Shown: positions 6,487-60,170 of the stretch, one piece after another
Layout of the letters: every line of letters begins with the position of its first letter
Numbering within the stretch: position 1 is the first letter of the stretch
Source: Heliocidaris erythrogramma
Lineage: Eukaryota > Echinodermata > Echinoidea > Camarodonta > Echinometridae
Length of the DNA stretch: 64,000 nt
Assembly: GCA_025617745.1 (NCBI GenBank)
Contig: CM046864.1
Coordinates: 30,297,162 to 30,361,161 of the forward strand
Reading direction: 5' to 3'
Program-made: the position numbers and the translations under genes
The notes under the pieces: model-generated
The model's input: the letters and a program-made list of their open reading frames with translations, nothing else
What the model was told of the DNA's origin: nothing
Database searches by the model: none

Positions 6487-6589
6487 ATACATGTTACATT
6501 GTTTAAAGTTATAAAATAGAAAGTATACATAAACATCCAGTATAATAGTTCTTTTTTTTTCTTTTTTTTGTTAAACCTGTGGAAATGGA

Positions 6590-6629
6590 GGGATCCACTG
6601 AAAAGCAGAGCTTGTAAAATGTGGATCCC
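6590..6629 (-). other. Conserved LINE 3'-UTR hairpin, copy 1
   Basis: On the minus strand GGGATCCA and TGGATCCC close a stem around a 24-base loop containing TTACAAGC, CTGCTTTT and AG. The same stem and nearly the same loop occur at 57969-58008 beside a related CR1-group LINE. This suggests a structural element of that family's 3' end. Confidence 0.6.
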
Positions 6630-6739
6630 TCGAAGTAATGACGAACATAATTTTTGTAACCTGTAAATAATTATATTGACTAGAAAAAAAATATATATAT
6701 AGAAGATTACCAAAAAGTGTCAGAATAATACTATAATAA

Positions 6740-7000
6740 AATGGGGTTGTTTACAAGATCCCTTGCTCGACTTGTGAGAAGGTCTGTATTGGCGAGACAG
6801 GTAGGCCTGTTGGGGAACGCATGCAAGAACATCGCCTGGATGTTCGGCTTAGGCGCACCCATAGTTCTGCTGTCGCAAAGCATGCGTGGAACTCCGATCA
6901 TCGCCCTAACTGGGATGAGATCAGCTGCATTGCGCACGACAAGCATTGGTATACGCGCCGAGTTAAGGAAGCGATTCAGATCCGTTTACACCAACAATGA
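6740..7000 (+). pseudogene. Penelope-like element fragment, GIY-YIG endonuclease domain
   Basis: The frame through 6758-7000 reads YKIPCSTCEKVCIGETGRP, then RMQEH, WYTRRVKEAI and a stop. This is the C-terminal GIY-YIG nuclease of Penelope-like retroelements, with the Y...CIGETGR core, the helix Arg and the late Glu visible. The domain nicks target DNA in intact elements. No reverse transcriptase is attached here; the fragment lies between a LINE 3'-UTR-like hairpin (6590) and the LINE coding remnant on the opposite strand (from 7078). A 132-codon frame starting at 6741 is a shadow in another frame. Confidence 0.75.
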
Positions 7001-7077
7001 CATCGTGTCCGGTGATTGGCCAGCGGCACCAACCAATCACAGCGCCCGAGTAGAGACAAACAATAGCACGCACCCAG

Positions 7078-7778
7078 TTAGAGACAGCGCCGCCCCGCAC
7101 CGGCGGGGCCCAACAATGACAATTTCAATTTCCTCTTAAATGAATTAAGTGACGGGGCAAGTTGAATGTCATTTTGAAGAGAGTTCCAAAATGTGGGGGC
7201 TGTATAAATAAACGTGTTTTGAGCTAGAAAGGTTCTCAGCAGAGGTAAATGAAAGTCATTACAACGCCGGGTTGGGTATTTATGAGAGGATTTATGTTGG
7301 GTGAACATATCATTAAAGATGGAAGGAAGCGTGTCGTTATGATAAGAATACATAAACTGGCCTAACTGAAGGAGAAAAAGATTTTTAATTTTCAATATTT
7401 TATTTTCAATGAAAAGAGGATCTGCGTGGGAGGGAAAATGAGAAAAGACAAATGATACGAAGAGCTTTTTTTTTTGTAGTAATACAATTTTGTGTAACAA
7501 ACTCTGGTGTGTATTGCCCGACGCCAGTAGTCCATAATGTAGATATTGTAAGACCAGAGAGGAATAAAGCATTAAAGTAAGGAAGAATAACGGAGATGTC
7601 TTTTCAATCTATCCATGACACCAATATTAAATAGTTGTCAATATGATACTTCCAGGATAGTTTATTGTCGACTGTTACGCTCCAAAATTTAGTGTAAGAA
7701 ACACTCTCCAACGGGAAGTCGTCGAATTCAATATTGATTGGCAGTGAGTCTATATTATTACTGAACAACATATATTTA
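7078..7778 (-). pseudogene. CR1-group LINE, C-terminal part of reverse transcriptase (LINE-A, 3' part)
   Basis: Read on the minus strand, the first part (7778 down to about 7604) has KYMLFSNNIDSLPI and then VDNKLSWKYHID, the thumb region following the RT catalytic core. The second part (7572-7078) has the usual CR1/L2-group C-terminus: LQYLHYGLLASGN, LLQKKKLF, then APTFWNSLQND and FKRKLKLSLL. A frameshift or stop separates the two parts. A GC-rich hairpin (CCCCGC/GCGGGG at 7093-7108) sits at the 3' end. The upstream half of the same element resumes at 11301 after a Penelope-like insertion. Confidence 0.75.
7736..7778. repeat. Target duplication of the Penelope-like insertion, left copy
   Basis: These 43 bases are identical to 11258-11300 (begins GATTGGCAGTGAGTC, ends ACATATATTTA) and belong to LINE-A coding sequence. 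On the right the LINE frame continues (LSLNLLKTKYMLF); on the left it ends at 7778 and Penelope-like sequence begins. Confidence 0.8.
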
Positions 7779-7789
7779 TAGTATTTGAA

Positions 7790-9482
7790 GGTTTGCATGG
7801 TGAAGTTGTAATTCAGAAAAAAGGTTTGCGTGCTCTTCGCACTGACCGCTCTATTCACATTCTTTCCGCAGATAAGGGCAACGCCACGGTCGTCATGGAC
7901 CGCACTGACTACAACCATAAGATCTCTGATATTTTATCCACAGGTTCGTACACCGAGGTCAAGAGAGACCCGACACCCAACATCAAACGATGCGTCACCA
8001 CAAACTTCGTTCGCTCAATAAACTTGGCCTGTTCCCTCCACGAGTTTATCGTTTTCTTCTTCCTTCCTCCAGCTCCTGCCCAGTGTTCTTTGGTCTACCA
8101 AAAATTCACAAACCAGACATTCCTCTCCGCCCGATTGTGTCCTCACGTGGTTCCCCCACCTACAATCTTGCTAAACATCTCGCACACATCCTTCAACCCC
8201 TCACAGGTCAGTCGCAACATCATGTCCGCAATTCTCATCACTTCACCACAATCATCAATGACATCAAGCTCAACTCCACAGACATACTAGTTAGTTTTGA
8301 TGTTGACTCTTTATTTACCAGTATCCCCATTCAAGAAGTTTGCGACATCACCAGAACTAGATTACAACAAGACACTGATCTCCAGGATCTCCTGATCTCC
8401 TGCTATCTCCCCAACAGATATATGACCTTCTTCTCCTATGTCTTACCTCCACCAGCTTCCAATGGCGGGATAAGTACTTCAACCAATCAGAAGGTGCCCC
8501 CATGGGCTCTCCACTCTCCCCAGTTATAGCTAATCTCTTCATGGAACAGTTCGAAACTACTATTCTCTCCACAGCACCGCATAAACCCACACTTTGGCTC
8601 CGTTACGTTGACGACACGTTTGTCATTTGGCCGCACGGTCCGGAAAAGCTGAACAATTTCCAGGATTTTCTCAACAAACATCACCCCTCCATCAGCTTCT
8701 CGTCAGAAGCAGAAAACAATAACTCTCTTCCTTTTCTTGATGTTTTGATCACCCACAGGCCTGACGGTTCACTCTCCCATAGTGTTTACCGTAAACCTAC
8801 CCACACAGACCGCTATCTAAACTTCCGATCTTTCCACCATCCGTCCGTCAAACGTTCGGTCTCCAGTTCCCTGATCAGGAGAGCTCACAACGTTTGCGAC
8901 TCAACCAGCCTTGACAACGAGTTAAAACACATCAAAACAGCCTTAGTTAACAATGGTTTCCCTCCTCAGGAAATACGCACATCTGTCAACAAACCCCATT
9001 CTCCCCCACCAACCAGGCACATCTCGTCCTGCACTATTCCCTACACAGGTCATGTCTCTCACCGCATTCAACGAGTCCTGCAGAAGGCCAACATACGGGT
9101 TTTCTTCAGTTCTAAACACAAACTTCACAAGTCTCTCTACACACACAAAGACACAGCTTCTCCCGACAGCAAACCAGGAGTGTACCGCATACCATGTTCC
9201 TGCGGTCAGGTCTACATCGGAGAGACTGGGAGGGACATCAAATCTCGCATCAAGGAACACCGTGCCCATGGGAGACTTGGTCACTATGACCAATCTGCCA
9301 TTATCAATCATTCTGCCACTCGTGATCACCAGATTAACTGGGAAGACACCAAACTTGTAGCCCCCGCTTCCAACTGGTACACCAGAAGGGTCCGTGAAGC
9401 CATCGAGATTCACAGACATAACACAGTTACACAGGACAAGGGTTTACAGATCAGCGACATTTGGTTTTCACTCTTCCAATAA
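7790..9482 (+). pseudogene. PLE-1 reverse transcriptase with C-terminal GIY-YIG nuclease, two frameshifts
   Basis: Penelope-type RT copies the element's RNA at a nicked target; the GIY-YIG domain makes the nick. Three frames carry successive parts. The N-terminal block has ILSADKGNATVVMDR (7840-7920). The middle block has FGLPKIHKP, RPIVSSRGSPTYNLA and VSFDVDSLFTSIP (about 8090-8400). The third block starts near 8440, reads GAPMGSPLSPVIANLFME, and has the catalytic LRYVDD with the aspartates at 8610-8615, then NSLPFLDV and KPTHTDRYL. The nuclease near the end has GVYRIPC...VYIGETGR (9177-9233) and WYTRRVREAIEI. Indels near 8000-8070 and 8400-8450 break the gene; the last 326 codons remain open. 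Confidence 0.88.
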
Positions 9483-9825
9483 TAAGTAGTGTTATAATTT
9501 TTTCCACAGGTTATACATGTTTACTTCATTTTTATGTATTATTAGTATACTCATTCTGGTGTCAATATTTCACCTTTTTCCATATGTATGTTTTAACCTT
9601 AATGTCTTTCCTCAACAGGATGACTTGTTTCTCTCCACAGATTATCTCCAACAGGATTTCATGATTCTCTCCTCAATTTGTTCATTTTCATTGTTTTTTC
9701 ACCTTTCTCTCCACAGCCACACCGGTCCACTTCATTCACAACATTTATTATATTTATATTCATTATTAGTACACTCATTCTGGTGCCATATTTCACCCTT
9801 TTCCATATGTATGTTTTAACCTTAA

Positions 9826-10755
9826 AGTAGATATTCAAAGAAAATCACAAATATGGCAATTAATGTATCACTAGAAACTGGGAAGCTTACAGATGGCAAT
9901 CTTATAAGTTTTATGTCAACTGCGTAGCTGGTGATTATAAAAACAACACAAATAAAAGCTCTTCTCAGCATCTGGAATATCCGAGGATTCGCCAGAAATA
10001 TAGCGATGTTTTGATGTCGTCACACTCGGGATCGATCCTGTTTAAGCAGACGACGTCCTATAATGAATGAACGTAATTGCAATGCAATTATTTATCAAAT
10101 TATAAAGAGTTTGGTGTATTTAAACTTGACCTTATTTCACACCATAATAAAGGGAAAGTGAAACGGATTCTGATAGCTAAAACCGTTTGATTGTAAATAC
10201 ATAGAGAAGGGTCAATGATCAATGAAATAAACCCCACTTTCAAATTGAAAAGCCCTCCGAATAATAGCAGGATGGTATTCGTTCCCTCTTGAAACGCCGA
10301 ACATGCCCCGGTGCAAGCAGCTGAAAATACAATGGCGTCTTATTTTGTTTACAAGTGACTGATTCCTTTATTTTGTTAACGCTGCATTTTTCATCAAAAT
10401 AATACCATACACGAAGTTAAGAGTGAGGCAACAGACTAACATTAAGACTGACGCTAGTGAAGGAAGAGAAATAAGTGAAGAGGAGATGACAAAATAGGCT
10501 CTGAAAAATGTGTAAGATGTTATGGGACATCGTCTGCTTAGACAGGACTGGTCCAGGGTGTGTCGTCACATATCTCAGCAGCGTTCGAGGAGCTCTTCAG
10601 CTGCTATATCGGGGGCTGTATTTTACCGTTTTATAATTGATAATAATCATTACTTCAAATGTTTCCAAGCGTTGAATTTGGATAACCTTGTTTAATTTAT
10701 GCCATCTATGCAATAATAAGTATTAAGCCAATATTTAAATTATTAACGTTCTACT
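9826..10755. mobile_element. TTAA-flanked inverted-repeat transposon, copy 1 (930 bp)
   Basis: TTAA at 9822-9825 and 10756-10759 flanks the element. The ends are AGTAG...CTACT, with longer degenerate arms that include GCAGACGACGTCC near 10037-10052 and its complement GGACATCGTCTGC near 10525-10537. A second copy at 47662-48592 is about the same length and closely similar throughout. The empty site is visible inside PLE-1 itself at 9594-9608 (AACCTTAATGTCTTTCC). No transposase is seen; a short frame intact in copy 2 is interrupted by stops here. Confidence 0.85.
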
Positions 10756-11096
10756 TTAATTTCTTTCCTCAACAGGATGTCATGTTTCTCTCCACAGATT
10801 ACCTACGGTCCTAATCCCCTTTTGTTTCCAGCTTATCCAGACGGTTAATTGGTTTCTTAGTCCTATTGTTCACTTGTTTTCAATGTTTCTTTTCAACGCA
10901 GGATTCGTTTGATGTTACTTATCCTTTCAATGCAGGTATCTTGATGTTATTTACCCTTTCAATGCAGGTACTTTGATGTTACTGTTACTATTTCTTTCTA
11001 TACTAACTCCGTGATGTTATTGTTTGCCTCCATTTTAATAAGTGAATTGCTGCTTCATATATAAATTCTGCTGATTTATTCGCTCTTCTCATTCTC

Positions 11097-11150
11097 CTGA
11101 CGACGGCCAGAGCATTCTGACCGGAACGTGGAGTTATTCCAACTCACATG
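11097..11150 (+). ncRNA. Degenerate hammerhead-ribozyme-like motif at PLE-1 3' end
   Basis: CTGACGA at about 11098 matches the CUGANGA core. It is followed by a strong stem-II candidate (CGGCCAGA paired with TCTGACCG, one mismatch) and then GGAACGTGGAG in place of the canonical GAAA-stem III-UH. Hammerhead motifs are established for Penelope-like elements. The altered GAAA and missing cleavage-site base suggest a dead copy. Confidence 0.4.
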
Positions 11151-11257
11151 GTTGGACTGCAAACCTTTTTTCTGAACATATATTTAGTTTTTAGGAGATT
11201 TTTAGGAGATTCTAAGTCCAATCACTTAGACCAGTGAAAACCAGTATAACCAGTTTT

Positions 11258-11300
11258 GATTGGCAGTGAGTCTATATTATTACTGAACAACATATATTTA
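11258..11300. repeat. Target duplication of the Penelope-like insertion, right copy
   Basis: Identical to 7736-7778; see that entry. It joins directly to the continuing LINE-A frame on its right. Confidence 0.8.
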
Positions 11301-11605
11301 GTTTTTAGGAGATTAAGTGAAAGTTTGTTTGCTCTACTCCATTGTAGATTCTTCGACAGTTCATAATTAACCGTTTTCACAAGAGTGCACGGATTATTGT
11401 GAGAATAGAACACATTCGTGTCGTCAGCAAAAAATATAAACGATAAAATATGAGGTGATCTGCAGAAATCATTTATGTATGAAATGAATAAAAGTGGACC
11501 TAGGAGGCTTCCCTGTGCAACACCACAGCTGACATTACACAAATCTGATGAACAATCGTTTAAAGAGACATATTGGTTTCTATTAGAAATATCCTGGATT
11601 TAATT
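11301..11605 (-). pseudogene. LINE-A reverse transcriptase core (CR1 group)
   Basis: On the minus strand: IQDISNRNQYVSLND, then CGVAQGSLLGPLLFI (RT block with GVPQG altered to GVAQG), then FIFFADDTNVFYSH with the catalytic FADD, then WSRANKLSLNLLKTKYML. It is the direct upstream continuation of the coding remnant at 7078-7778, so the two are one gene split by PLE-1. The RT blocks upstream of NRNQYV are absent because the element orientation flips at about 11606. Confidence 0.85.
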
Positions 11606-11606
11606 A

Positions 11607-11970
11607 CCAACAATAGACAAGTAAACACAGGAGGCGGCGTAGGAATGTATGTACCAACAGACTCGAGTACTCTTCCCTAAATGATTTGGCATACATGACC
11701 AATATTTTTGAATCACTTTTTTATTGAGATAGAAATGAAGTAGAGTGGAAATGTAATAATAGGTGTCATATACCGGCCTGCCCAATTTCTGCATGACGAG
11801 TTTTTGATAGATATCAAATTACATTAAAAAGTCCAGTCATTCAAAATAAACACTGTTTTATAATGGGTGACTTCAATATCAACGTGTTGCTTTCCAATGC
11901 ACAAGGTTTTTCTCATGATTTTTCAGATTTACTTTTTACTTATTTACTTTTATTAACTCCGAACTACGAT
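11607..11970 (+). pseudogene. Inverted LINE 5' part: AP-type endonuclease domain
   Basis: On the plus strand, in shifting frames, are GGGVGMYV (about 11630), NVIIGVIYRPAQFLHDEF (about 11745-11805) and FIMGDFNINVLLSNAQ (about 11850-11900). These are consecutive blocks of the apurinic-endonuclease-like domain encoded by CR1/Jockey-group LINEs upstream of RT. GDFN is the catalytic signature. Orientation is opposite to the adjoining RT at 11301-11605, as expected from twin-priming (5' inversion) during one insertion. Several stops and indels. Confidence 0.72.
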
Positions 11971-12678
11971 ACCTACGAATTCCATTTTTGCAAGTTTGGG
12001 TAAATTGAAGAAATGAATGCTTTCACTGATGATGATATTAGGACAAAGATGATATAATAGTATACATTGTTAATTTATGCAAACATTTCAATAATATATG
12101 CCAATGATGAATGGAAAGATTATTTCCTGTCTCGTGATTCTGTTGAAATTTGCTTTAACTTTATGTTAGTATCCGTACGATAATCCCAAAGTTGTTGCCT
12201 TGACACTGCAGTTGAGTGACAAGTCATGTCCTTGATATTTCCAAACATTCGCTCAATTTTTCTGGTCGCAATAAGAAGCTCTCTTTCTAGGAAACGTTCT
12301 TCCAGAGTCTTGTGGTAGCAGGTGGAAAATTTTCTTATACGAAGGTCTGGTGTGCAATTTAAGTTGAACCACTTTACGAATGATAACCGACGATACCAAG
12401 ACCCTCTATAATACTTACATAATTAGGTAAAATACTCACTGTCCGTCATACATCAAGTACCAAAGCTTCCGAAAACGCTGTTCATCTTGGTCATATCAAA
12501 GGAAAAAATACTCGATCATGTGTGGCATTAGAGAGAGAGAGTGTTCGTTTCAGTCTTTCCAGTTACCAAAACTTGCAAGAAATGAAACTAGTACCTGTTA
12601 TCCGTATCCGTACTCTGTCATGTGTGACGTAAGTGATGCAAGTAATATATCGGTAAAGGTAAGGAGTTCATCTCTATA
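11971..12678. other. Unassigned
   Basis: AT-rich with a short GA repeat at 12532-12541. No motif recognised. Confidence 0.4.
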
Positions 12679-13929: not shown

Positions 13930-14908
13930 ATGGCACGAAAAAGAGACATGATAACGAAGCTTTTGGGACTTGCACTCATCAGGTTATCACGCAGGTATGT
14001 AACAAATTACTCGAAATCAACTATATTATACTCCATGAACCCGGACGCCGTAATTTCAGAACAATCGCAAAGCTTGGACGAACTCATTTTGTCTACACAA
14101 AACGGGTTCGTGCGATTGAATGTAGGCGGCTTCCACAAAGCGTAAATTCGCTATGCTTCTGGCCCGGGACATAACTGAAAATTGATCGTCGGCATAGCTT
14201 TGTGCAAAGCTGGATTGTTCAGCGTATGGAGATCGACCGATCGCTGAATCGCATTTGGCTGTCTTTTGGTCTGTTAGCGTGCGTTTTCGATTTGCAGGCA
14301 CGGACAGGCTGCGTGTATGGTTCCAAATAGTCGAGGGGACGTGTTGTTTTAATGCAATCAGCCAACCGCCCACGTACGGCCCACGTACCTGGCATCGCAC
14401 CGGCACTGAAATTGGTAAATAACATGACTCAAGTGGGAGGTGGGTAGTACATCCTTGCTAGTTGACGGTAGCATCCTATTTGTGGAAAACACAATGCGTG
14501 TCGAAACCGCATAATAGCAACATGTCACTGCGTGTTTGATCTGACTGGCGTATTTGTCAGATACCTTACCCCTCCAAGGTAGTTTGAGATAGTCCGGGCA
14601 TTTGGCAGGTCCAAATCTGGTGTCAGATTTGGATCGTGCCTCCAGCGTCCGTGTTATGGTGCGAGATACAACATGCTCAGGGTAACCATTGTCAAGGAGA
14701 ATAGTTGTGATGTACGCGATTTTGGGAGCTAATTTGCACTCGGAGCAAATATTAAGGGCGCGGCACACTAAGTTTCTAATGAGCCTAATCTTGTATGAAG
14801 TTGCACTGTGCGAGTCCCATCTCGTGTATTGCCCAGTGAATGTGGGCTTGTTGTAGACGGAAGTGATACATCGAGAAATCGCATTGGACAGTTCAATTTC
14901 ACGGTTCT
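13930..14908 (-). pseudogene. Second Penelope-like family (PLE-2), C-terminal RT and GIY-YIG nuclease
   Basis: Minus-strand reading from 14908 downward: RFLDVS, frameshift, VYNKPTFTGQYTRWDS, LIRNLVCRALNICSECKL, LLDNGYPEHVV, ending the RT. Then come LPSTSKDVLPTSHLSHVIYQF and CRCDARYVGRT, the start of the GIY-YIG domain, and after another frameshift CDSAIG, YADDQFSVMSRARSI, FVEAAYI and CRQNEFVQALRLF. It differs clearly from PLE-1 (Tyr-Val-Gly-Arg-Thr instead of YIGETGR), so it is another family. The 5' side is cut by the minisatellite at 14909; the 3' end runs into a hammerhead-like motif and (TA)n. Overlapping plus-strand frames are shadows. Confidence 0.8.
13950..13988 (-). ncRNA. Hammerhead-like motif of PLE-2, decayed copy
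   Basis: On the minus strand GATAAC precedes CTGATGA and GTTATC closes the stem, as in the better copy at 19877-19914. Here the GAAA box has become CCCAAAA and the spacer is longer, so self-cleavage is unlikely. Confidence 0.45.
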
Positions 14909-31679: not shown

Positions 31680-32890
31680 AGGTTTTGAGGCGTCGGGTCA
31701 CATATTGACCATCTTTAAGCTCCTAACTAAGCTAGGCGCGAAGCTCCAAAAGCTTGCTCTGATGCGTGACAGAAAATGCTAAGCGTTGGAAGACCCACTG
31801 TATTTGGAGGTGTCAAGCATCTCAGTAATGTCACGTAATTCAGTCCCTCTATCTCTTTGAAGAGTTTCCTCCAATACTACTTCTGATTTTGCGGCAGCTC
31901 CTCATACAAATCTACTTCTGTTTGCCACAAATGCTGCATCCTAATCTCAGCTCGGACAAGGAATAGGGATGCAAATGATATGGGGTCAAACAACCTCGCA
32001 ACTTGACTCAATATGCGTCTCTTTGTCAATGGGGCGTTGAAGACAAGGCTTACTTGAAGCCAGTGACTCTAGGATTTACATTTCCTGCTTTGCTTGATAT
32101 GCATTAGCTCCCTGTAGCGTTTGTTAGACAGCCATTCTTTTCCTTTAAATCCACCCTCTGCGGGAGATTAATCTATTTCACGTGTAGCTTCTGAGCATCC
32201 GCTGTGGACTTCACTAATGTGCAAATGTGTGTGTCTCTCTTGATGACCATTGCAGCCATGGGATACATGGACTTCGTGTCATCGGCTGTTCTCTTAAACG
32301 CTACTTGGGCCATGGCGGCAGGAGGCTTGTCGCCAAACGTTACCACGGTCTTAACGAAAGTCCCTGGCTCCTTCTTTCGATTCAGCCCTCTCCACATATA
32401 TCGGTGAGTGTGTTGATCAGCTATAGGTTCAACACCCGACGATACATTTTAGAAATGTCAGCGCAGACTGCAACTAGATGCTGTCTGAACCTCATCAGCA
32501 CTCCATTGTGGTTATTCAACAGATCTGAACCTTTGAGCCAGTACTCGTTGAGACAACGTCCCCCAAACTTCGCTGACGAATTGGACACGATTTGTAGTGG
32601 AGTGCTCTTCTTGTGGGGTCGGAGTGCTGTGTGATGGCTGGTATAGTGTATCGGTCCATAATGCTGTTTTATCTCCTCGTCTGAGAGCTTGTTCTCAGTA
32701 GCTTCCAACATCCTTTCAGTCTGCGCTTTTTTGTGGGGAAGCTTGTGTGATTCGTATTTCCACTGATAAGGTACAAGCCACTGCTTGCCCATCTTCTCGC
32801 GCGAGTTCGAGATCGGCTGGAACTTAGTCTTATCGACGCTCTTGATCTTGTTGTCGATGGCATTTCCGTTTGTCTCGATCTCGATTTCAA
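31680..32890 (-). pseudogene. BEL/Pao retrotransposon pol fragment (array unit A): RT to start of RNase H
   Basis: On the minus strand from 32890 downward: PISNSREKMGKQWLVPYQW, YTSHHTALRPHKKSTPLQIV, SSAKFGGRCLNEYWLKGSDL, VAVCADISKMYRRV (RT block with the first catalytic Asp), then KTVVTFGDKPPAAMAQV. The downstream YMDD-type box has decayed (RDTHICTL). LFLVRAEIRMQHLWQTEVDL and FCHASEQAFGASRL of the connection and RNase H start appear in A, then ELKDGQYVTRRL near 31700. This block order is diagnostic of BEL/Pao elements. No gag, integrase or LTRs are seen. Plus-strand frames over it are shadows. Confidence 0.85.
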
Positions 32891-34585
32891 AGCCTAGGTC
32901 CTAAGCAAGGTGTCTTTGGCGTAGTCTTTGCTCTTGCTGCCTCGACAGTAGTATTTGGGATTATTCAGGAAGGTGGCCAAGGGGACACCGAATATACTAT
33001 TCAGCTTCATGTAAGTATAAATGGACTCGTACATGGAGGCAGTGGCCCCACCCCCCCCCCCCCCCCCCACTTCTGGAAGAAAATTATGCATTGCATGTTT
33101 TCATAATAAATCATTTTTGTGCATTCAAAAGAAAATACTTTTATCCTGTCATATAGCCTATTTGTGCAAGATATCTCTTTCAGCTGTTCCATAATTTCAG
33201 CAGTTTCATAATGTTATGTTTGGGAATGTTTTTTATTCTTGCTTTTTTGGGGGTTTTTTTCATTTGCTTTTTTTGGTTTTTTTTTGGTTTTGTTTTTGTT
33301 TTTTTGTTTTTGTTTTTTTTTTTGGAGGGGGGTGCAGTTTTAACGCCTTTTTAATAGTTTACAATCATCATTACAGTCATAGTGCAGGCCTAAATTTCAA
33401 ATCTAAATCTTCCCAAATGTCCGTTGGCAAACTTCAGTAAGAGACAACCTATTTGTTTCAAGATATCTGTTTCAGTTGTTTCATAGGTGGGGCAGTTTCT
33501 TTTGTTAAGCAGGATTTGGCATGCCCAATTTGTAGCTTGGTCAGACAAATTTTGTCAATTCTTTAAAGAAGTGACTAGTTATCACCTGTGCGAGACACTG
33601 GGGGTACCAAGATGACTTTAGTTCTACAATAGCTATTCATTATGCAACGCCATTTCCATTGTGGAGTGGTAAATCGACATGTACTACTATGACATCAGTT
33701 ATTATTTTTTTCTTCAAAATGGTAGCCCCCATTAGATAATACCTCGCAAGGAATATGCAAACGTTTGAGAGATTGTTTTCCTTGCTGGGTAATCAAATGG
33801 GAATATTTTAAAGATATTTTGAACATGCTGACAATTCCCCCCATTATTATCAGCTGTTTGTTGAGTTTCATTCTCCTTTAAGGATGCATGAAAAAGTACC
33901 ATGTGGGGAACATTTTTTTTAAATGGGTACCCGGGCCCCAAGGCCAAATGGATCAATATCCAGTTTTGCTTAGAACATGTTCATCTACCTGTGTACCAAA
34001 TTTAGTGCCTTTATCACAAAAGGCACAATTATATAAATGCATCAGTAAGTATACAAAAACAAATGAAAACAATTACAAACGCAAATGTAAAGACAACATA
34101 GCTTTTATAACTTTGCGTACTAGTTTTCTAGGTATTTATATGGTATTTTGGAGACATTCCTAATAAATGCAGTGATCTACGTCAGTTGCCGTGATCAATC
34201 TGCATCGCTTAATAGATTATGCTACATGAATATAGAGTTTTTGAATTCTAATAGATCCGTGACAAACTTTGTTTTGAAAATGCGAACCCTGCTTCTAAAA
34301 GAAAGTTCGCTCTAAGAATTTCGAGGGGGGGGGGGGGGGGGTCTGGTTTGATCCACCCTCTTCCACTCCCGTTGCCTTGACTGCATCACTACTCTCTTTA
34401 CAAAAGCCAATGTGAAATAATGAAAAATTACTCCTCAGGGATGTCAATGTCAAAGTAGAATTTTTAAAGTAATAAATGCAGAGAGAAATATCAAAGCAGA
34501 AGAAACTACATGTACAGTCAGACCGAGCACAGGTTTATACTCCGAAAACGGCGTATAGAGCAAGATGAATATAGAGCCCTCATCA

Positions 34586-35740
34586 TTGACCATCTTTAAG
34601 CTCCCAACTGAGGTAGGCGCAAGCTCCAAAAGCTCGCTCTGATGCGCGACAGAAAATGCTAAGCGTTGGAAGACCCACTGCATTTGGTGGTGTCAAGCGT
34701 CTCAGTAATTTGAAGAGTTTCCTCCAATACTACTTCTGATTTTGCGGCAGTTCCTCATCCAAATCTACTTCTGTTTGCCACAAATGCTGCATCCTAATCT
34801 TACTTCGGACAAAGAATAGGGATGCAAATCATATGGGGTCAAACAACCTCGCAACTTGACTTAATATGCGTCTCTTTGTCAATGGGGCGTTGAAGCCAAT
34901 GCTTACTTGAAGCTAGTGACTCTAGGATTTCCATTTCCTGCTTTGCTTGAGATGCATTAGCTCCCTGTAGCGTTTATTAGAAAGCCATTCTTTTCCTTTA
35001 AATCCACCCTCTGCTGGAGATTAATCTATTTCACGTGTAGCTTCTGAGCATTCGCCGTGGTCTTCATTAATGTGCAAATGTCTTCCATGTGTGTGTCTCT
35101 CTTGATGACCATTGCAGCCATGGGATACATGGACTTCGTGTCATCGGCTGTTCTCTTAAACGCTACTTGGGCCATGGCGGCAGGAGGCTTGTCGCCAAAC
35201 GTTACAACGGTCTTAACGAAAGTCCCTGGCTCCTTCTTTCGATTCAGCCCTCTCCACCTATATCGGTGAGTGTGTTGATCAGCTATAGGTTCAACACCCG
35301 ACGATACATTTTAGAAATGTCAGCGCAGACTGCAACTAGATGCTCTCTGAACCTCATCAGCACTTCATTGTGGTTATTCAACAGATCTGGACCTTTGAGC
35401 CAGTACTCGTTGAGACAATGTCCTCCAAACTTCGCTGATTTGTAGTGGAGTGCTCTTCTTGTGGGGTCGGAGTGCTGCGTGATGGCTGATATAGTGTATG
35501 GGTCCATAATGCTGTTTTATCTCCTCGTCTGAGAACTTGTTCTCAGTAGCTTCCAACATCCTTTCTGCATGCGCTTTGTTGTGGGAAAGCTTGTGTGATT
35601 CGTCTTTCCACTGATAAGGTATAAGCCACTGCTTGCCCATCTTCTCGCATGAGTTTGAGATCGGCTGGAACTGACTCTTATCGACGCTCTTGATCTTGTT
35701 GTCAATGGCATTTGTGTTTGTCTCGAAATCGATTTCCAAG
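34586..35740 (-). pseudogene. BEL/Pao pol fragment, array unit B
   Basis: Same blocks as unit A, but the reading shifts after KKSTPLQI because of the 14-base deletion and resumes in another frame with SAKFGGHCLNEYWLKGPDL and VAVCADISKMYRRV. The YMDD position reads HMEDIC (near 35090), closer to the active motif than in A. Confidence 0.85.
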
Positions 35741-37216
35741 CTCCGGTCCTAGAGGAAGGTGTCTTTGGCGTAGTCTTTGCTCTTGCTGCCTTGATAGTAG
35801 TGTTTGGGATTATTCAGGAAAGTGGCCAAGGGGACGCTGAATATACTATTCAGTTTCATGTAAGTATAAATGGACTCGTACATGGAGGCAGTGGCGGATT
35901 TAGGGGGAGGTACACATCTGCCCCCCCCCCCACCCCCTGGCGAAGAAAAGTATGCTTTTTTGGGGGGTGCAGTTTTAGCGCCATTTTAATAGTTTACAAT
36001 CATCATTACAGTCATCGTGCAGGCCTAAATTTCAAATCTAAATCTTCCCAAATTTCCGCTGGCAAACTTCAGTAGGAGACAACCTATTTGTGTCAAGATA
36101 TCTGTTTCAGCTGTTTAATAGGTGGGGCAGTTCTTTTGTTAAGCAGGATTTGGCATGCACACTTTGTTGCTTGGTCAGACAAATGTTGTCAATTCTTTAA
36201 AGAAGTGACTAGTTATCACCTGTGCGAGACACTGGGGGTACCAAGATGACTTTAGTTGTACAATAGCTATTCATTATGCAACGCCATATCCATTGTGGAG
36301 TGGTAATTGGACATGTACTACTAGGACATCAGTTATTGTTTTTTTTTGTCAAAATGGCAGCCCCCATTAGATAACACCTCGCAAGGAATATGCAAACGTT
36401 TGAGCGATTGTTTTCCTTGCTGGGTAATCAAATGGGAATATTTTAAAGATATTTTGAAAATGCTGACAATTCCCCCCATTATTATCAGCTGTTTGTTGAG
36501 TTTCATTCTCCTTTAAGGATGCATGAAAAAGTACCATGTGGGGAACATTTTTTTAAATGGGTACCCGGGCCCCAAGGCCAAATGGATCAATATCCAGTTT
36601 TGCTTAGAACATGTTCATCTACCTGTGTACCAAATTTAGTGCCTTTATCACAAAAGGCACAATTATATAAATGCATCAGTAAGTATACAAAAACAAATGA
36701 AAAAAATTACAAACGCAAATGTAAAGACAACATAGCTTTTATAACTTTGCGTACTAGTTTTCTAGGTATTTATAAGGTATTTTGAAGACATTCCTATTAA
36801 ATGCAGTGATCTACGTCAGTGGCCGTGATCAATCTGCATTGCTTAATAGATTATGCTACATGAATATAGAGTTTTTGAATTCTAATAGATCCGTGACAAA
36901 CTTTGTTTTTAAAATGCAAACCCTGCTTCTAAAAGAAAGTTCGCTCTAAGAATTTCGAGGGGGGGGGGGGGTCTGGTTTGATCCACCCTCTTCCACTCCC
37001 CGTTGCCTTGACTGCATCACTACTCTCTTTACAAAAGCCAATGTGAAATAATGAAAAATTACTCCTCAGGGATGTCAATGTCAAAGTAGAATTTTTAAAG
37101 TAATAAATGCAGAGAGAAATATCAAAGCAGAAGAAACTACATGTACAGTCAGACCGAGCACAGGTTTATACTCCGAAAACGGCGTATAGAGCAAGATGAA
37201 TATAGAGCCCTCATCA

Positions 37217-38372
37217 TTGACCATCTTTAAGCTCCCAACTGAGGTAGGCGCAAGCTCCAAAAGCTCGCTCTGATGCGCGACAGAAAATGCTAAGCGTTGG
37301 AAGACCCACTGCATTTGGTGGTGTCAAGCGTCTCAGTAATTTGAAGAGTTTCCTCCAATTACTACTTCTGATTTTGCGGCAGTTCCTCATCCAAATCTAC
37401 TTCTGTTTGCCACAAATGCTGCATCCTAATCTTACTTCGGACAAAGAATAGGGATGCAAATCATATGGGGTCAAACAACCTCGCAACTTGACTTAATATG
37501 CGTCTCTTTGTCAATGGGGCGTTGAAGCCAATGCTTACTTGAAGCTAGTGACTCTAGGATTTCCATTTCCTGCTTTGCTTGAGATGCATTAGCTCCCTGT
37601 AGCGTTTATTAGAAAGCCATTCTTTTCCTTTAAATCCACCCTCTGCTGGAGATTAATCTATTTCACGTGTAGCTTCTGAGCATTCGCCGTGGTCTTCATT
37701 AATGTGCAAATGTCTTCCATGTGTGTGTCTCTCTTGATGACCATTGCAGCCATGGGATACATGGACTTCGTGTCATCGGCTGTTCTCTTAAACGCTACTT
37801 GGGCCATGGCGGCAGGAGGCTTGTCGCCAAACGTTACAACGGTCTTAACGAAAGTCCCTGGCTCCTTCTTTCGATTCAGCCCTCTCCACCTATATCGGTG
37901 AGTGTGTTGATCAGCTATAGGTTCAACACCCGACGATACATTTTAGAAATGTCAGCGCAGACTGCAACTAGATGCTCTCTGAACCTCATCAGCACTTCAT
38001 TGTGGTTATTCAACAGATCTGGACCTTTGAGCCAGTACTCGTTGAGACAATGTCCTCCAAACTTCGCTGATTTGTAGTGGAGTGCTCTTCTTGTGGGGTC
38101 GGAGTGCTGCGTGATGGCTGATATAGTGTATGGGTCCATAATGCTGTTTTATCTCCTCGTCTGAGAACTTGTTCTCAGTAGCTTCCAACATCCTTTCTGC
38201 ATGCGCTTTGTTGTGGGAAAGCTTGTGTGATTCGTCTTTCCACTGATAAGGTATAAGCCACTGCTTGCCCATCTTCTCGCATGAGTTTGAGATCGGCTGG
38301 AACTGACTCTTATCGACGCTCTTGATCTTGTTGTCAATGGCATTTGTGTTTGTCTCGAAATCGATTTCCAAG
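37217..38372 (-). pseudogene. BEL/Pao pol fragment, array unit C
   Basis: Practically identical to unit B, including the shared deletion and the HMEDIC motif. One G is lost in the segment just beyond the coding block (AAGGGACGCTG against AAGGGGACGCTG). Confidence 0.85.
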
Positions 38373-39849
38373 CTCCGGTCCTAGAGGAAGGTGTCTTTGG
38401 CGTAGTCTTTGCTCTTGCTGCCTTGATAGTAGTGTTTGGGATTATTCAGGAAAGTGGCCAAGGGACGCTGAATATACTATTCAGTTTCATGTAAGTATAA
38501 ATGGACTCGTACATGGAGGCAGTGGCGGATTTAGGGGGAGGTACACATCTGCCCCCCCCCCACCCCCTGGCGAAGAAAAGTATGCTTTTTTGGGGGGGTG
38601 CAGTTTTAGCGCCATTTTAATAGTTTACAATCATCATTACAGTCATCGTGCAGGCCTAAATTTCAAATCTAAATCTTCCCAAATTTCCGCTGGCAAACTT
38701 CAGTAGGAGACAACCTATTTGTGTCAAGATATCTGTTTCAGCTGTTTAATAGGTGGGGCAGTTCTTTTGTTAAGCAGGATTTGGCATGCACACTTTGTTG
38801 CTTGGTCAGACAAATGTTGTCAATTCTTTAAAGAAGTGACTAGTTATCACCTGTGCGAGACACTGGGGGTACCAAGATGACTTTAGTTGTACAATAGCTA
38901 TTCATTATGCAACGCCATATCCATTGTGGAGTGGTAATTGGACATGTACTACTAGGACATCAGTTATTGTTTTTTTTTGTCAAAATGGCAGCCCCCATTA
39001 GATAACACCTCGCAAGGAATATGCAAACGTTTGAGCGATTGTTTTCCTTGCTGGGTAATCAAATGGGAATATTTTAAAGATATTTTGAAAATGCTGACAA
39101 TTCCCCCCATTATTATCAGCTGTTTGTTGAGTTTCATTCTCCTTTAAGGATGCATGAAAAAGTACCATGTGGGGAACATTTTTTTTAAATGGGTACCCGG
39201 GCCCCAAGGCCAAATGGATCAATATCCAGTTTTGCTTAGAACATGTTCATCTACCTGTGTACCAAATTTAGTGCCTTTATCACAAAAGGCACAATTATAT
39301 AAATGCATCAGTAAGTATACAAAAACAAATGAAAAAAATTACAAACGCAAATGTAAAGACAACATAGCTTTTATAACTTTGCGTACTAGTTTTCTAGGTA
39401 TTTATAAGGTATTTTGAAGACATTCCTATTAAATGCAGTGATCTACGTCAGTGGCCGTGATCAATCTGCATTGCTTAATAGATTATGCTACATGAATATA
39501 GAGTTTTTGAATTCTAATAGATCCGTGACAAACTTTGTTTTTAAAATGCAAACCCTGCTTCTAAAAGAAAGTTCGCTCTAAGAATTTCGAGGGGGGGGGG
39601 GGGGGTCTGGTTTGATCCACCCTCTTCCACTCCCGTTGCCTTGACTGCATCACTACTCTCTTTACAAAAGCCAATGTGAAATAATGAAAAATTACTCCTC
39701 AGGGATGTCAATGTCAAAGTAGAATTTTTAAAGTAATAAATGCAGAGAGAAATATCAAAGCAGAAGAAACTACATGTACAGTCAGACCGAGCACAGGTTT
39801 ATACTCCGAAAACGGCGTATAGAGCAAGATGAATATAGAGCCCTCATCA

Positions 39850-41003
39850 TTGACCATCTTTAAGCTCCCAACTGAGGTAGGCGCAAGCTCCAAAAGCTCG
39901 CTCTGATGCGCGACAGAAAATGCTAAGCGTTGGAAGACCCACTGCATTTGGTGGTGTCAAGCGTCTCAGTAATTTGAAGAGTTTCCTCCAATACTACTTC
40001 TGATTTTGCGGCAGTTCCTCATCCAAATCTACTTCTGTTTGCCACAAATGCTGCATCCTAATCTTACTTCGGACAAAGAATAGGGATGCAAATCATATGG
40101 GGTCAAACAACCTCGCAACTTGACTTAATATGCGTCTCTTTGTCAATGGGGCGTTGAAGCCAATGCTTACTTGAAGCTAGTGACTCTAGGATTTCCATTT
40201 CCTGCTTTGCTTGAGATGCATTAGCTCCCTGTAGCGTTTATTAGAAAGCCATTCTTTTCCTTTAAATCCACCCTCTGCTGGAGATTAATCTATTTCACGT
40301 GTAGCTTCTGAGCATTCGCCGTGGTCTTCATTAATGTGCAAATGTCTTCCATGTGTGTGTCTCTCTTGATGACCATTGCAGCCATGGGATACATGGACTT
40401 CGTGTCATCGGCTGTTCTCTTAAACGCTACTTGGGCCATGGCGGCAGGAGGCTTGTCGCCAAACGTTACAACGGTCTTAACGAAAGTCCCTGGCTCCTTC
40501 TTTCGATTCAGCCCTCTCCACCTATATTCGGTGAGTGTGTTGATCAGCTATAGGTTCAACACCCGACGATACATTTTAGAAATGTCAGCGCAGACTGCAA
40601 AGATGCTCTCTGAACCTCATCAGCACTTCATTGTGGTTATTCAACAGATCTGGACCTTTGAAGCAGTACTCGTTGAGACAATGTCCTCCAAACTTCGCTG
40701 ATTTGTAGTGGAGTGCTCTTCTTGTGGGGTCGGAGTGCTGCGTGATGGCTGGTATAGTGTATGGTTCCATAATGCTGTTTTATCTCCTCGTCTGAGAACT
40801 TGTTCTCAGTAGCTTCCAACATCCTTTCAGCATGCGCTTTGTTGTGGGAAAGCTTGTGTGATTCGTCTTTCCACTGATAAGGTACAAGCCACTGCTTGCC
40901 CATCTTCTCGCATGAGTTCGAGATCGGCTGGAACTGACTCTTATCGACGCTCTTGATCTTGTTGTCGATGGCATTTGTGTTTGTCTCGAAATCGATATCC
41001 AAG
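39850..41003 (-). pseudogene. BEL/Pao pol fragment, array unit D
   Basis: Same as B and C with private changes: four bases lost in the RT block near 40598, an extra T near 40528, and a truncated non-coding half that ends near 41190 shortly after CACTTCTGGAAGAAAG. Confidence 0.83.
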
Positions 41004-41190
41004 CTCCGGTCCTAGAGGAAGGTGTCTTTGGCGTAGTCTTTGCTCTTGCTGCCTTGATAGTAGTGTTTGGGATTATTCAGGAAAGTGGCCAGGGGGACAC
41101 TGTATAAATAGACTCGTACATGGAGGCAGTGGCGGATTTAGGGGGGGGGGGGGGTACACATCGGACCCACACTTCTGGAAGAAAGGTATG

Positions 41191-47211: not shown

Positions 47212-47661
47212 TTTCCATATGTCTGCACTTTGTTTGTCTTTTGTACTTCGCTCTATGAATACGTTTCATCGGAAATGGCGTTTTCGTTGATTTGGGGACC
47301 CCACTCCACTTTCAAGTTTTTATATACCAGAATGGCGAGTATGGAAGCATCAAAACGATGTATCCCATACCCGGAACCTTTCTGAGCGATACAACGAAGT
47401 TCTAATTTGGATTGGCTGAACGATAGTACGCTAAATAACTGACCCGTTGATTTAGAGTTGCCGATTCGCGGCTGGGTAGGTTGTCTCATTTTGTTGACTT
47501 ATGACCTTTCAATCAACTCCCAGTTTTTCATACACTGCAGGAAGTGAGAAAAGGTATTGGTGCTTTATTTTAGCCTTGTTTAGGGATCTAAACTGTGCCA
47601 GGGCTCATGTACCCACGGTGTTTTATTAATGTTGGTACGAGCCTCTTCATAGAGTCTTTAA

Positions 47662-48592
47662 AGTAGAACACTCAAGAAAATCACAAATATGGCAATTAAT
47701 GTATCACTAGAAATTGGGAAGCTTACAGATGGCAATCGTATAAGTTTTATGTCAACTGCGTATATGATGATTATAAAAACAACATAAATAAAAGCTCTTC
47801 TCAGCATGTGGAATATCCGAGGATTCGCCAGAAATATAGCGATGTTTTGATGTCGTCATACGAGGGATCGATCCTGCTTAAGCAGACGACGTCCTATAAT
47901 GAATGAACGTAATTGCAATGCAATTATTTATCAAATTATAAAGAGTTTGGTACATTTAAACATGACCTTATTTCACACCATTCGAAAAGGGAAAGTGAAC
48001 TGATTCTGATAACTAAAACCGTTTGATTGTAAATACACAGGAGAAGGGTCAATGATCAATGAAATAAACCCCATTTTCAAATTGAAAAGCCCTGCGAATA
48101 ATAGCTGGATGGTATTCGTTCCCTCTTGAAACGCCGAACATGCCGCGGTGCAAGCAGCTGAAAATACAATGGCGTCTTATTTTGTTTACAAGTGACTGAT
48201 TCCTTTATTTTTTTAACGCTGCATTTTTCATCAAAATAATACCATACACGAAGTTAAGAGTGAGGCAACAGACTAACATTAAGACTGACGCTAGTCAAGT
48301 AAGAGAAATAAGTGAAGAGGAGATGACAAAACAGGCGCTGAAAAATGTGTATAATGTTATGGGACATCGTCTGCTTAGACAGGACTCGCCCCTCTTGTGT
48401 CGTCACACATCTCAGCAGCGTTCAAGGAGCTTTTCAGCTGCTATATCGGGGCTGTATTTTACCGTTTTATAATTGATAATAATCATTAATTCAAATGTTT
48501 CCAAGCTTTAAATTTGGATAACCTTGTTTAATTTATGCCATCTATGCAATAATAAGTATTAAGCCAATATTTAAAATCATCAGTGTTCTACT
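47662..48592. mobile_element. TTAA-flanked inverted-repeat transposon, copy 2 (931 bp)
   Basis: TTAA at 47658-47661 and 48593-48596; ends AGTAGAACACT and AGTGTTCTACT are perfectly inverted over 11 bp. Degenerate pairing continues for about 240 bp, including GCAGACGACGTCC and its counterpart near 48362. A 70-codon frame at 48260-48472 (EISEEEMTKQALKNVYNVMG) is intact here but has stops in copy 1. Not recognised as a transposase piece. Confidence 0.87.
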
Positions 48593-48596
48593 TTAA

Positions 48597-51350: not shown

Positions 51351-51366
51351 AAGTTAACACATTGAA
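51351..51366. repeat. Target-site duplication of LINE-E, left copy
   Basis: AAGTTAACACATTGAA; the identical 16 bases occur at 54248-54263 after the poly-A. Confidence 0.93.
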
Positions 51367-54247
51367 CAGATTCAATGCATATACCTGGTGCAATTCTCCT
51401 CCTTGATATTCAAAAAGCTTTTGACAGTGTTTCCCATGAATTTCTTTTCCGTGTACTAAATAAATTTAACTTCAGTAATAAATTTGTTAATTGGATTAAA
51501 GTATTTTATTCGGGTAGAAAAAGCTATATCTCTAATTATGGAAATATGACTAAACCAATTGACATGGAAAGGGGTATATTTCAAGGGTGCCCCATTTCGC
51601 CATATTTGTTTTTACTGGTTATCGAAACGATGGCTCTTGCCATTAGACAAAACCCTGATATCAAAGGAATCCCAGTTGAAGGAAATGAATTGAAAATCTC
51701 ATTATTAGCAGACGACTCTACTTGTTTTATTGATGGCTCAGACATTTCTTTTAAATCTTTATTTGATACTATTGAAATATTTTCTCAATCGTCTGGTTGT
51801 AGACTTAATATATCCAAATCAGAAGCAATATGGATTGGATCCAAGAAAGGTACTCAGTTGTATCCATTTTCTGAGAAAGGTTTGAAATGGAATGAATCTA
51901 TTTTTAAAACATTAGGTATTCACTTTTCTTTGAATACAAAGCAAATATATGAACTTAATTATGTGATAAAGCTTAAATCTATTGAAAAAACCTTGAATTG
52001 CTGGCGGGCTAGAAATTTATCCCTAGTCGGGAAGATCTGTGTCTTAAAGACCCTATTGTTGCCACAGTTTCTTTATGTTTTCACTGTTTTGTGTATTAAA
52101 ACTCTACAAAAGTTTTTTCAACAATTGAATACATTACTATATAAATTTATATGGAGTGGTGGCAATGATAGGGTCAAAAGACAGATGATGTGTAATGATT
52201 ATTCTTTAGGTGGCTTGAAAATGATTGATCCGTACGCATTCTCTATGGCACAAAAAATGTCATGGGTCAAATTACTTTTGGATGATAATTATGAAAGTTT
52301 GTGGAAATCAATTGAACTATCCATTTTGAATAAGTTTAGTGATAAAAGAGATATTTTGTGGAAAGCATATGCCCCTGACAATATTTTGAACAACTTAATC
52401 TCAAGTCAATTAGCTGAATCCCTGCATACATGGTATATATTCAGAGAGAAATTTTGTGAAAATGTGTGTGATCTTGGTTTTTCTTCAGTTGGTTCTTATC
52501 AATGTATTTGGTTTAATAGGAACATCCGTTCAAAATCAAAGCAATATTTTATATACCAAGACTGGCTTGATAAAAATGTGATTTATATTAGTGATTTACT
52601 CAATCCCCCCCCACCCTGGTTATAAACTGTTTGAAGAGCTTATCCTTGATTATGGTATTAGTGCACAGGATAGGAGAAAGTACAATTTTTTGGTAAAAAA
52701 CATACCAGAGGATTGGCTGATAACTTCTGATTTAACCCCAGACATAATTTTTGGCAAGATTAGAACTCAAATTTTGAAAATTAAAAAAATCCCACAATAT
52801 GCTTATAGTATCATGCTAGGGTCTAATGTTCCAGAAAAGCAAATGTCATTTTGGGGTGAGTTCTATGGTCCTGGCGACATTGATTGGAAGAAAATTCATA
52901 TAAATAATTTTAAATGCACAATAGTTACTCGTATCCGTTCATTTTATTTTAAGCTCTTTCATAGAGCGATAAGTTTCAATGATTTTTTGCACAAAATTAA
53001 AAGAAAAGACACCCCTAACTGTTCTTTTTGTAATACTGCTCCTGAAACCTACAAGCATTTTTTCATTGAGTGTCCTGCTGTTAAAATTATTTGGGATAAG
53101 ACTGTAAAGGCCATTATTCAAAAAATCAACAAACCACTAAATGTGTCCATTTTTGAAAAAATGTTTGGGTTTGATGATGATAAATTCCTAACATATTTGT
53201 TTCTCCTACTAAAATATTATTTCTATATTTGTAAATTCCAAAACAAAACACCAAAGTTTGAAGGTTATAAGAAATACATTGCGTCCAATAAGGATATTGA
53301 ATACCGTATTGCCAAGAAAAACAACAAACTTCCACTTCACTTTCGAAAATGGAGATTTACATTTTGAGTATTGTAACAGTGGCCATGGCTTTACATACAC
53401 AAAATATTTTGTTTCTAGAGATCTGATGTAACTGCCTTCATAATTTATACTGTTGTACACTGTATGTAGTACTTATAAAGATTGGTACTCGGCCCGAGAG
53501 GTTTTTTTTCCCCTCTACTGGGCCCAAAGCGTTGGGGTGGATGTCTGTGGTTGCCCGTTGGTGTTTCCGCGTATCGACCGGGCGGATGGCTGTTTTCCCC
53601 GTTTCGTGTAATATTTTCGTTTCAGGCAGGTTTCATCTCGGCGTGTATGTTGATGTGCAATGTGTATTAAAAGTGAATACGAATTTTGCAGTGGGGACTC
53701 GGTATGGTAGGGCCTAGGGGTCATAACTGGTTCATTCGGTTCGATTTTTGGACTATTTCTTTGTTTATTTCATTTTCATGCAAAACACAGAGATGCATGA
53801 CATTCCGCTCTGATCTGGCCACCTTATACCGGGTTTCGACTGTACATGTCATGTGTTCATGATGTTAATAGTTTTTTTTTTTTCCGAGAGAGAGAGTGTG
53901 TGTGTGTGTCAACTATTAATCGATCATTCACAGTTATGGGATCTGCCTTGTATTATGTCGCTAGTATAGTGGGAGGGGTGATTAGCCGTTCGTTGCCAGG
54001 TTCGTTTCGTGGGGTCGTCTTCGGTTGGCTATGGGCATCCTCTCAGGTCCTTTGTATTGTTTTGTTAGCTGCTCTCTTTATTTTACTTTTATCTTAGCTG
54101 CTCTCTTTATTTTATTTTTATCTGTTGTTGTTGGGGGTTTTTCTTTTGTTTTTGTAATTATTATCCATATTTTATGATTATCCTGATTTTGTACCTGATT
54201 TGTTGCATTTTGTAAAATTCAATAAATACATAAAAAAAAAAAAAAAA
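51367..54247 (+). mobile_element. LINE-E: 5'-truncated Tx1/L1-like LINE, complete 3' end
   Basis: A 2.88-kb insertion bounded by a perfect 16-bp duplication. It holds RT coding (51375-53367), a roughly 860-base T-rich 3' UTR, AATAAATACA near 54220 and a poly-A tail of about 18. The long open frames, perfect duplication and clean tail mark it as the youngest insertion in the window. 5' truncation lies just before RT block A, so no endonuclease is present. Confidence 0.93.
51375..53367 (+). pseudogene. LINE-E reverse transcriptase and zinc-knuckle, one frameshift
   Basis: First frame (51375-52625, 416 codons): LLLDIQKAFDSVSHEFL at residues 8-24 (catalytic Asp 11), RGIFQGCPISPYLF at 66-79, SLLADDSTCF at 109-118 (catalytic ADD), CRLNISKSEAIWIGS, then thumb LKTLGIHF. 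The second frame (52591-53367) continues with the C-terminal domain and a C-x2-C-x8-H-x4-C knuckle (C144, C147, H156, C161 of that frame). The switch lies in a C-run at about 52604-52614, so slippage or a base-call error could be the only lesion. The block order and QGCPISP favour the Tx1/L1 side rather than CR1. Confidence 0.9.
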
Positions 54248-59297: not shown

Positions 59298-60170
59298 TCT
59301 ATATGGTATTTCCATGAAAGTTTATTTTCAACAGTTATGCCTAGAAATGTAATAAATGAGACAACTTCTAAAGGGGTATCGCCAAACACAATATCCATGG
59401 GCAGTGTGTATATAGAATTACCAAATAACATATATTTGGTTTTTGGGAGGTTGAGGGATAGTTTATTGGCTCTTATCCATTGGGTGACTTTTTCAAGCAC
59501 AGAATTTACAACATTGGCTAAAGTATTTGGATTCTTGTGGGAATAAAATAGATTAGAATCGTCTGCAAAAAGTATAAACGAAAGGATATCGGATGATTTA
59601 CAAAAGTCAATTATATAAATAATAAACAGTAGAGGACCCAACAAACTGCCCTGGGGGACCCCACAATTTATGTTTTGCATATTGGATGTATGATCATTCA
59701 AAATACGTACTGTCGTCCATTGGATAAGTAGCCCATAATGAGAAAATTTGAATAATAGATGTCGTGATTGATGGCGTCGAAGGCCTTGGAGAAGTCCTGG
59801 AAAATACTAACCAGATGAGAACATTTGTTTAAAGCATGCGCTACTTTGTCAACACAATTCAAAAAGGCATTATGTTTTTATCTAAATCAAAATTGAAGGT
59901 ATATAATAAATATATATAATAAAATAATATATAATAAAAAAATAACATGAGTGTTTAAAAAGTTAACGGTTGTACAATAAATAGCTTTTTCTAGAATCGT
60001 CGACAAGGAGGATAATACAGAAATAGGTCTATAATTACTAACATTCAACGTATCACTTTTTTTTGTACAGGATGACCTTTGCAATTTTCATGTTATCTGG
60101 GACTTGTCCATTAAGTAACGATAGATTAAAAACATGTACTAAGGGATTACAATTGAAGAAATTACACCTT

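Follow-up and report, generated by a model that had tools for sequence, protein, structure and literature searches.

In L1 twin priming, two cDNAs are started from the two target strands and come to lie head to head, the second cDNA starting at a varying internal site. Among Penelope-like elements (PLEs), the Anolis protein PAc cuts and extends both target strands, its synthesis beginning at two neighboring positions of the RNA that delimit its tail, and PLE tails are generally 30 to 40 bp long (PMC11167929). The same 2024 biochemical study left open the steps that follow the first initiation. For Pen2a of the rotifer Adineta vaga, sections of PMC3846280 give a 31-bp tail and a 9-bp target duplication. 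Here we describe a PLE in a 64,000-nucleotide stretch of the Heliocidaris erythrogramma genome (the window), where it lies on the plus strand inside a minus-strand long interspersed nuclear element (LINE), LINE-A, and is itself split by a 930-bp TTAA transposon. Nested elements as such are ordinary, and the interest lies in the pairing of the PLE ends: this one insertion displays both PLE cDNA start sites, and its relatives within this genome follow a strict rule in how the two are used.

Both ends of the PLE in the window fall within the start of its open reading frame (ORF). The 3′ end stops at ORF nt 27 to 29, and the 5′ end is an inverted copy of the ORF start that reaches nt 62, a feature absent from an earlier annotation of the window made from its letters (the original prediction). 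The two end pieces overlap by 18 nt, the remaining 33 bp of the inverted copy being what is known as the PLE tail, and jointly give a 62-nt ORF start that is open and that recurs, little changed, in relatives. When the outermost 60 nt at either end of the PLE were compared, the longest perfect inverted match measured 16 nt (18 nt if the shared AA is counted), and the maximum in 500 first-order Markov samples was 9 nt. The inverted arm meets the reverse transcriptase (RT) region at 7829/7830, where relatives keep normal sequence. The 18-nt inverted repeat was also considered as coding sequence and rejected, the ORF of relatives upstream of the join being different and only the TGC being shared.

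Directly abutting both PLE ends is a 12-bp repeat (AACATATATTTA) that is identical at 12 of 12 positions, and the site as a whole, ctgaac[AACATATATTTA]gttttt, fits a family pattern of aac[10-12 bp]gtt. The original prediction had the PLE extend from 7779 to 11257 and took a 43-bp identical duplicate as its boundary. The PLE does split LINE-A after 7778, but it ends at 11174, since positions 11175 to 11200 are LINE sequence, equal to 11289 to 11314 (26/26) and also matching a further LINE of the window, LINE-D (59.7 to 59.4 kb). The target duplication is therefore 12 bp and not 43. A flanking repeat does exist, with an exact run of 45 bp (7734 to 7778 and 11256 to 11300) that becomes 59/59 without the PLE, but the proposed 43 bp are part of this 59-bp LINE duplication and stand 81 bp further on at the right end. 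Similarly, the LINE frame is cut at 7778 as claimed, yet it does not return first at 11301, as LINE sequence is already back at 11175 for 26 bp and then at 11256. Under the earlier model, the 43 bp would be the target duplication and the last 83 bp would be PLE or filler copied at insertion. The 45-bp run is indeed identical on both sides, and excising everything between restores the LINE frame; however, none of the 71 other anchors displayed continues, by eye, into the window's sequence right of the PLE end, and the duplications of 39 paired relatives are 7 to 16 bp long (see below). We consider that model very improbable and note that a long flanking repeat can pass for a target duplication.

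Relatives of the PLE were sought in the 1.06-Gb assembly (26 contigs, the window lying in contig C12), which gave at least 114 scored matches to the PLE RT and endonuclease protein and 1704 matches to a 30-nt ORF-start pattern, with none for the reversed control. Counts of end types and pairing rest on loci L001 to L100, which represent a single PLE family. Distinct ends comprised 62 short ends (the short end of the window copy included), 58 long ends, and 5 others (n = 125), with an additional 4 that ran on into the ORF. Short ends were most frequent at nt 29 (20 ends) and nt 30 (17 ends).

Fifty outward-facing pairs of ends were inspected, 5 of which were removed as duplicated loci. A target duplication of 7 to 16 bp, most often 11 or 12, was present in 39 pairs; when flanks from different insertions were combined as a control, 7 of 1406 combinations showed a duplication. 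Thirty-eight of the 39 pairs were mixed (19 with the short end on the left and 19 with the long end on the left), one combined an unclear end with a short end (L098), and none were alike. With roughly half of the ends short and half long, independent choice would predict like ends in about half of the pairs. Moreover, very short inverted arms were detected as candidates at 6 otherwise unpaired ends among 42 rows (L003, L006, L020, L023, L031, and L050), and all 6 were of the opposite type; in 13 of the remaining 36 rows, the searchable upstream sequence was no longer than 202 nt. The window copy and L099, in which the inverted tail begins at nt 56, also obey mixed pairing, and L048 has a weak candidate duplication. 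The target sites (38 sites) were AT-rich with a T-rich stretch directly outside either end of the duplication, and many read aac[10-12 bp]gtt by eye. When 30 two-armed insertions were measured, the short-site arm was the longer one in 14, and the inner join was direct in 14, with a mean overlap of 2.86 nt compared to 0.66 nt at random joins. A one-short-one-long rule was not found stated in the sections of PMC11167929, PMC3846280, PMC8969392, and PMC12910113 that were available, and it may be in print in subscription journals, which were not covered. We conclude that two-armed insertions of this family that have a target duplication pair one short end with one long end almost without exception.

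Each arm, followed from its target junction, is the reverse complement of the sense RNA, and thus each junction looks like a target-primed start. We read the pairing rule to mean that the two strands of one insertion use different start sites. In the mechanism that we propose, the PLE endonuclease would cut the two strands of an AT-rich site with a stagger of about 12 bp, after which one 3′ end would prime a cDNA at about ORF nt 29 (the short end) and the other at about nt 62 (the long end), each start site lying slightly beyond one of two GCAAACCTT motifs that are 33 nt apart. In the window copy, the second cDNA would be 51 nt long and would meet the first at a TGC common to both, resulting in a head-to-head insertion in which neither target junction is the 5′ end of the RNA. 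One RNA held by a protein dimer would explain the pairing rule. We give about even chances to a coordinated reaction in which one ribonucleoprotein, probably a dimer on one RNA, presents two start sites separated by about 33 nt, each with a GCAAACCTT motif next to it, and uses one per nicked strand, such that every two-armed insertion becomes short plus long. If so, the “optional” tail would be a vestige left by the second start site, and the second cDNA would be what is seen as inverted pseudo-long terminal repeats (pLTRs).

Inverted arms could also arise by self-priming (fold-back), which has been proposed for the Penelope elements of A. vaga in sections of PMC3846280 that report head-to-head arrangements whose inverted junctions contain palindromes. 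Fold-back of one cDNA, however, does not predict junctions at two start sites with one of each in 38 of 39 pairs, and PAc extends both target strands in vitro (PMC11167929). We regard fold-back as distinctly unlikely here and favor priming from both cut strands.

Several observations weigh against two fixed start sites shared out between the strands. In bulk assays in vitro, the start site of PAc did not differ between strands (PMC11167929). The long ends were scattered, with nt 64 being the commonest (15 of 58), nt 62 accounting for 5, and the remainder ranging from nt 58 to 77, although these lengths are overstated wherever the flank matches the ORF by chance; given the scatter, the distance from motif to start is 9 to 11 nt and not a constant 9. 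The GCAAACCTT motif was spotted post hoc, random sequences contained a 10-nt repeat 93 times in 5000 (3 times in 5000 at a spacing of 33), and the motif repeat in relatives is only 9 nt. Inner joins were gapped rather than direct in 16 of the 30 insertions, 3 of which reflect split alignments. Among 27 rows with unpaired ends that were checked, 7 had a candidate duplication and 20 had none, and plain 5′-truncated joins with a candidate duplication occurred at L004, L030, L033, and L096 (short) and at L097 (long). Single-armed insertions thus occur, and the pairing rule covers two-armed insertions only. Six pairs lacked a duplication, and these were ORF/long (L014), mixed (L024, L086, and L092), short/short (L082), and unclear/long (L083); the left flank of L082 is PLE coding sequence, and an ungapped classifier scored L083 as short/long with a duplication. 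Finally, the rule was tested in one PLE family only.

Individual relatives had further peculiarities. L086 carries its tail twice in tandem, as if copying had slipped between GCAAACC motifs. In L092 and L098, the same foreign sequence (AAGCTGTAGAATTTCTACC) is fused at the same pLTR point and is perhaps a spreading non-autonomous derivative. Three PLE ends on contig C21, close to 34.4 and 48.0 Mb (L060, L061, and L062), share one flank, which suggests either a large inverted duplication or a feature of the assembly. Four arms (L005, L027, L074, and L080) have a common end point 104 nt upstream of the ATG, which may be a favored stopping place or the 5′ end of the RNA.

Removing the PLE in silico left two identical 59-bp copies of LINE sequence with 55 bp of filler in between, and 30 nt of that filler recur in a distant locus (L018). 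LINE-A encodes an RT of the non-LTR kind that is 67.6% identical to LINE-D over 102 amino acids. When the insert, the filler, and one repeat copy were removed, a comparison of the kind that the original prediction had suggested, one frame of the rejoined LINE-A was free of stops throughout, and the sequence aligned to LINE-D at 59293 to 59665 (373 nt; 270 positions matched, 94 were mismatched, and 18 columns were gaps, with no gap at the join). Because the second 59-bp copy is uninterrupted, the PLE would have inserted into the first copy after the duplication. The simplest reading, to judge from the arrangement of the copies, is that a small duplication with filler arose in LINE-A, presumably by repair, and that the PLE then entered its first copy. 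Tandem duplications from the repair of staggered breaks are described in sections of PMC5730883; the LINE-A case is like them in being a short duplication with inserted sequence and differs in that its origin is deduced here from structure alone.

A single event could also account for the arrangement if insertion of the PLE made a 12-bp duplication and synthesis during repair of its right side switched to a sister or homologue that lacked the insertion, thereby producing the filler and the second 59-bp copy. Consistent with one event, all copies are identical (59/59 and 12/12), so that the sequence gives no age difference between the events, and these lie within 60 bp of one another. That account requires a template switch to the empty allele, however, and two separate events in a LINE of more than 1 kb would not be improbable; we think a single event unlikely. 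The nesting is genuine and the order given in the original prediction, LINE, then PLE, then TTAA transposon, is correct, but the duplication with its filler counts as an extra event that is probably older than the PLE and probably makes four layers rather than three. The history would begin with insertion of LINE-A, followed by a staggered break in LINE-A whose repair left a 59-bp duplication and added 55 bp of filler, insertion of the PLE into the first of the two copies, which created a 12-bp target duplication, and insertion of the 930-bp TTAA transposon into one repeat unit of the PLE pLTR. We conclude with good confidence that four successive events, with PLE insertion by priming from both cut strands, are the best explanation of the locus.

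LINE-A adjoins broken plus-strand frames at 11600 to 12010, opposite in strand to its RT, that resemble a LINE endonuclease (GGGVGMYV and MGDFNIN) and that matched Pfam Exo_endo_phos only at an E value of 0.073, under the cut-off. LINE-A itself may be a 5′-inverted (twin-primed) copy.

The DNA transposons piggyBac, Kolobok, and Sola3 are TTAA specific. The 930-bp element that splits the PLE was correctly delimited by the original prediction and is flanked by TTAA on both sides. Its empty site is preserved in the pLTR repeat of the PLE itself, as claimed, but at 9595 to 9611 (AACCTTAATGTCTTTCC) and not at 9594 to 9608; the paralogous site has a single TTAA, indicating that TTAA was duplicated on insertion. 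Moreover, removal of the element plus one TTAA, which had been proposed as a check, gave a joined repeat unit that aligned to the first unit across the site with 114 matches, 13 mismatches, and 1 gap. A second copy at 47658 to 48596 is 94.06% identical over 942 columns and likewise has TTAA on both sides; its ends are better kept, and it starts and stops with AGTAGAACACT as an inverted repeat. The elements are like piggyBac, Kolobok, and Sola3 in the TTAA target duplication, with a terminal inverted repeat in the 47.7-kb copy, but the element in the PLE lacks a transposase, and the window's ORF list holds no ORF of 120 or more amino acids inside it. Because there is no transposase, the superfamily is left unassigned. 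We conclude, judging by the TTAA duplication, that the element is a non-autonomous TTAA DNA transposon.

The PLE encodes an RT (PF00078, E value of 6.2e-9) and a C-terminal GIY-YIG endonuclease in one frame. Its coding region is broken, differing in length from relative L012 at 7999 and at 8388 to 8398, and some relatives in the genome have open frames of more than 800 amino acids. Comparison with the PDB returned distant RTs only, among which telomerase chains had a weak E value of 0.09 and ranked behind other RTs. Upstream of the ORF start is a hairpin that we take to be hammerhead-like; Rfam hammerhead models gave no match at the gathering score across the window or at relaxed thresholds in 6500 to 12000 and 11050 to 11260, and the fold z-scores of the hairpin were −1.2 and −1.7. 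No PLE relatives were confirmed in IMG/VR or GTDB contigs. We conclude that the PLE is an endonuclease-bearing Penelope-like element and a further member of a known group. The features of the locus are collected in Table 1.

Table 1. Coordinates of the nested elements and their junctions in the window
Feature	Positions	Strand	Remarks
LINE-A 3′ (C-terminal) part	7117-7778	-	Left edge approximate
59-bp LINE duplication, first copy, part 1	7734-7778		Parts 1 and 2 together equal 11256-11314 (59/59)
PLE target-site duplication, left	7767-7778		AACATATATTTA; 10 bp if the shared AA is assigned to the PLE
PLE short inverted arm	7779-7829	-	Inverted copy of ORF nt 12-62; end of the long type
Tail (outer 33 bp of inverted arm)	7779-7811	-	
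Motif GCAAACCTT, second copy	7788-7796	-	ORF nt 45-53
TGC common to both arms, inner join	7827-7829		
PLE sense arm, first part	7830-9825	+	RT to GIY-YIG coding, then part of pLTR
GIY-YIG endonuclease domain	9174-9293	+	PF01541, E value 1.8e-5
pLTR tandem repeat, first copy	9520-9647	+	Holds the empty TTAA site
TTAA target duplication, left	9822-9825		
930-bp TTAA transposon	9826-10755		No long ORF; second copy at 47658-48596
TTAA target duplication, right	10756-10759		
PLE sense arm, second part	10760-11174	+	Remaining pLTR and ORF nt 1 to 27-29; short end type
Hammerhead-like hairpin (presumed)	11095-11135	+	Same letters in most relatives displayed
PLE ORF start at 3′ end	11148-11176	+	Codes MVGLQTFFL; ATG at 11148
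Motif GCAAACCTT, first copy	11159-11167	+	ORF nt 12-20
PLE target-site duplication, right	11175-11186		
59-bp LINE duplication, first copy, part 2	11187-11200		Part 1 at 7734-7778
Filler	11201-11255		11 nt repeat LINE flank; 30 nt (11215-11244) also in locus L018
59-bp LINE duplication, second copy	11256-11314		Uninterrupted; identical to first copy (59/59)
LINE-A RT part	11256-11600	-	PF00078, E value 4.6e-10

Other elements lie in the same window. A plus-strand fragment at 6749 to 6994 that adjoins the left edge of LINE-A belongs to a second PLE (PLE-2), the GIY-YIG of which is 47.6% identical to that of the PLE described here (PLE-1) over 82 residues, and a minus-strand fragment at 14361 to 14906 derives from a third PLE that is more remote (25.8% identical across 163 columns). 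On the plus strand, 51366 to 53367 hold a long RT frame from another kind of LINE (PF00078, E value of 2.8e-21) with one frameshift, and a unit that has overlapping ORFs on both strands is present in at least three direct copies at about 32218 to 41011.

The PLE in the window is like PAc and Pen2a in combining an RT with GIY-YIG, in a pLTR that includes the ORF start, in ends that lie inside the ORF, and in inverted ends, as well as in a 33-bp tail, a short target duplication, and AT-rich targets (PMC11167929 and sections of PMC3846280). Among the differences, its presumed hammerhead-like hairpin has no Rfam match. Elsewhere the tail is called optional, being found on one of the inverted pLTRs (sections of PMC3846280) or in a fraction of copies (PMC11167929), whereas here it is on one end and missing from the other in 38 of the 39 two-armed insertions that have a target duplication. 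Should the pairing rule extend to other PLEs, tails, inverted pLTRs, and two start sites would be united in one testable scheme. The window PLE also resembles the products of L1 twin priming in its head-to-head cDNAs, but unlike in L1, both arms come from two preferred sites at the start of the ORF.

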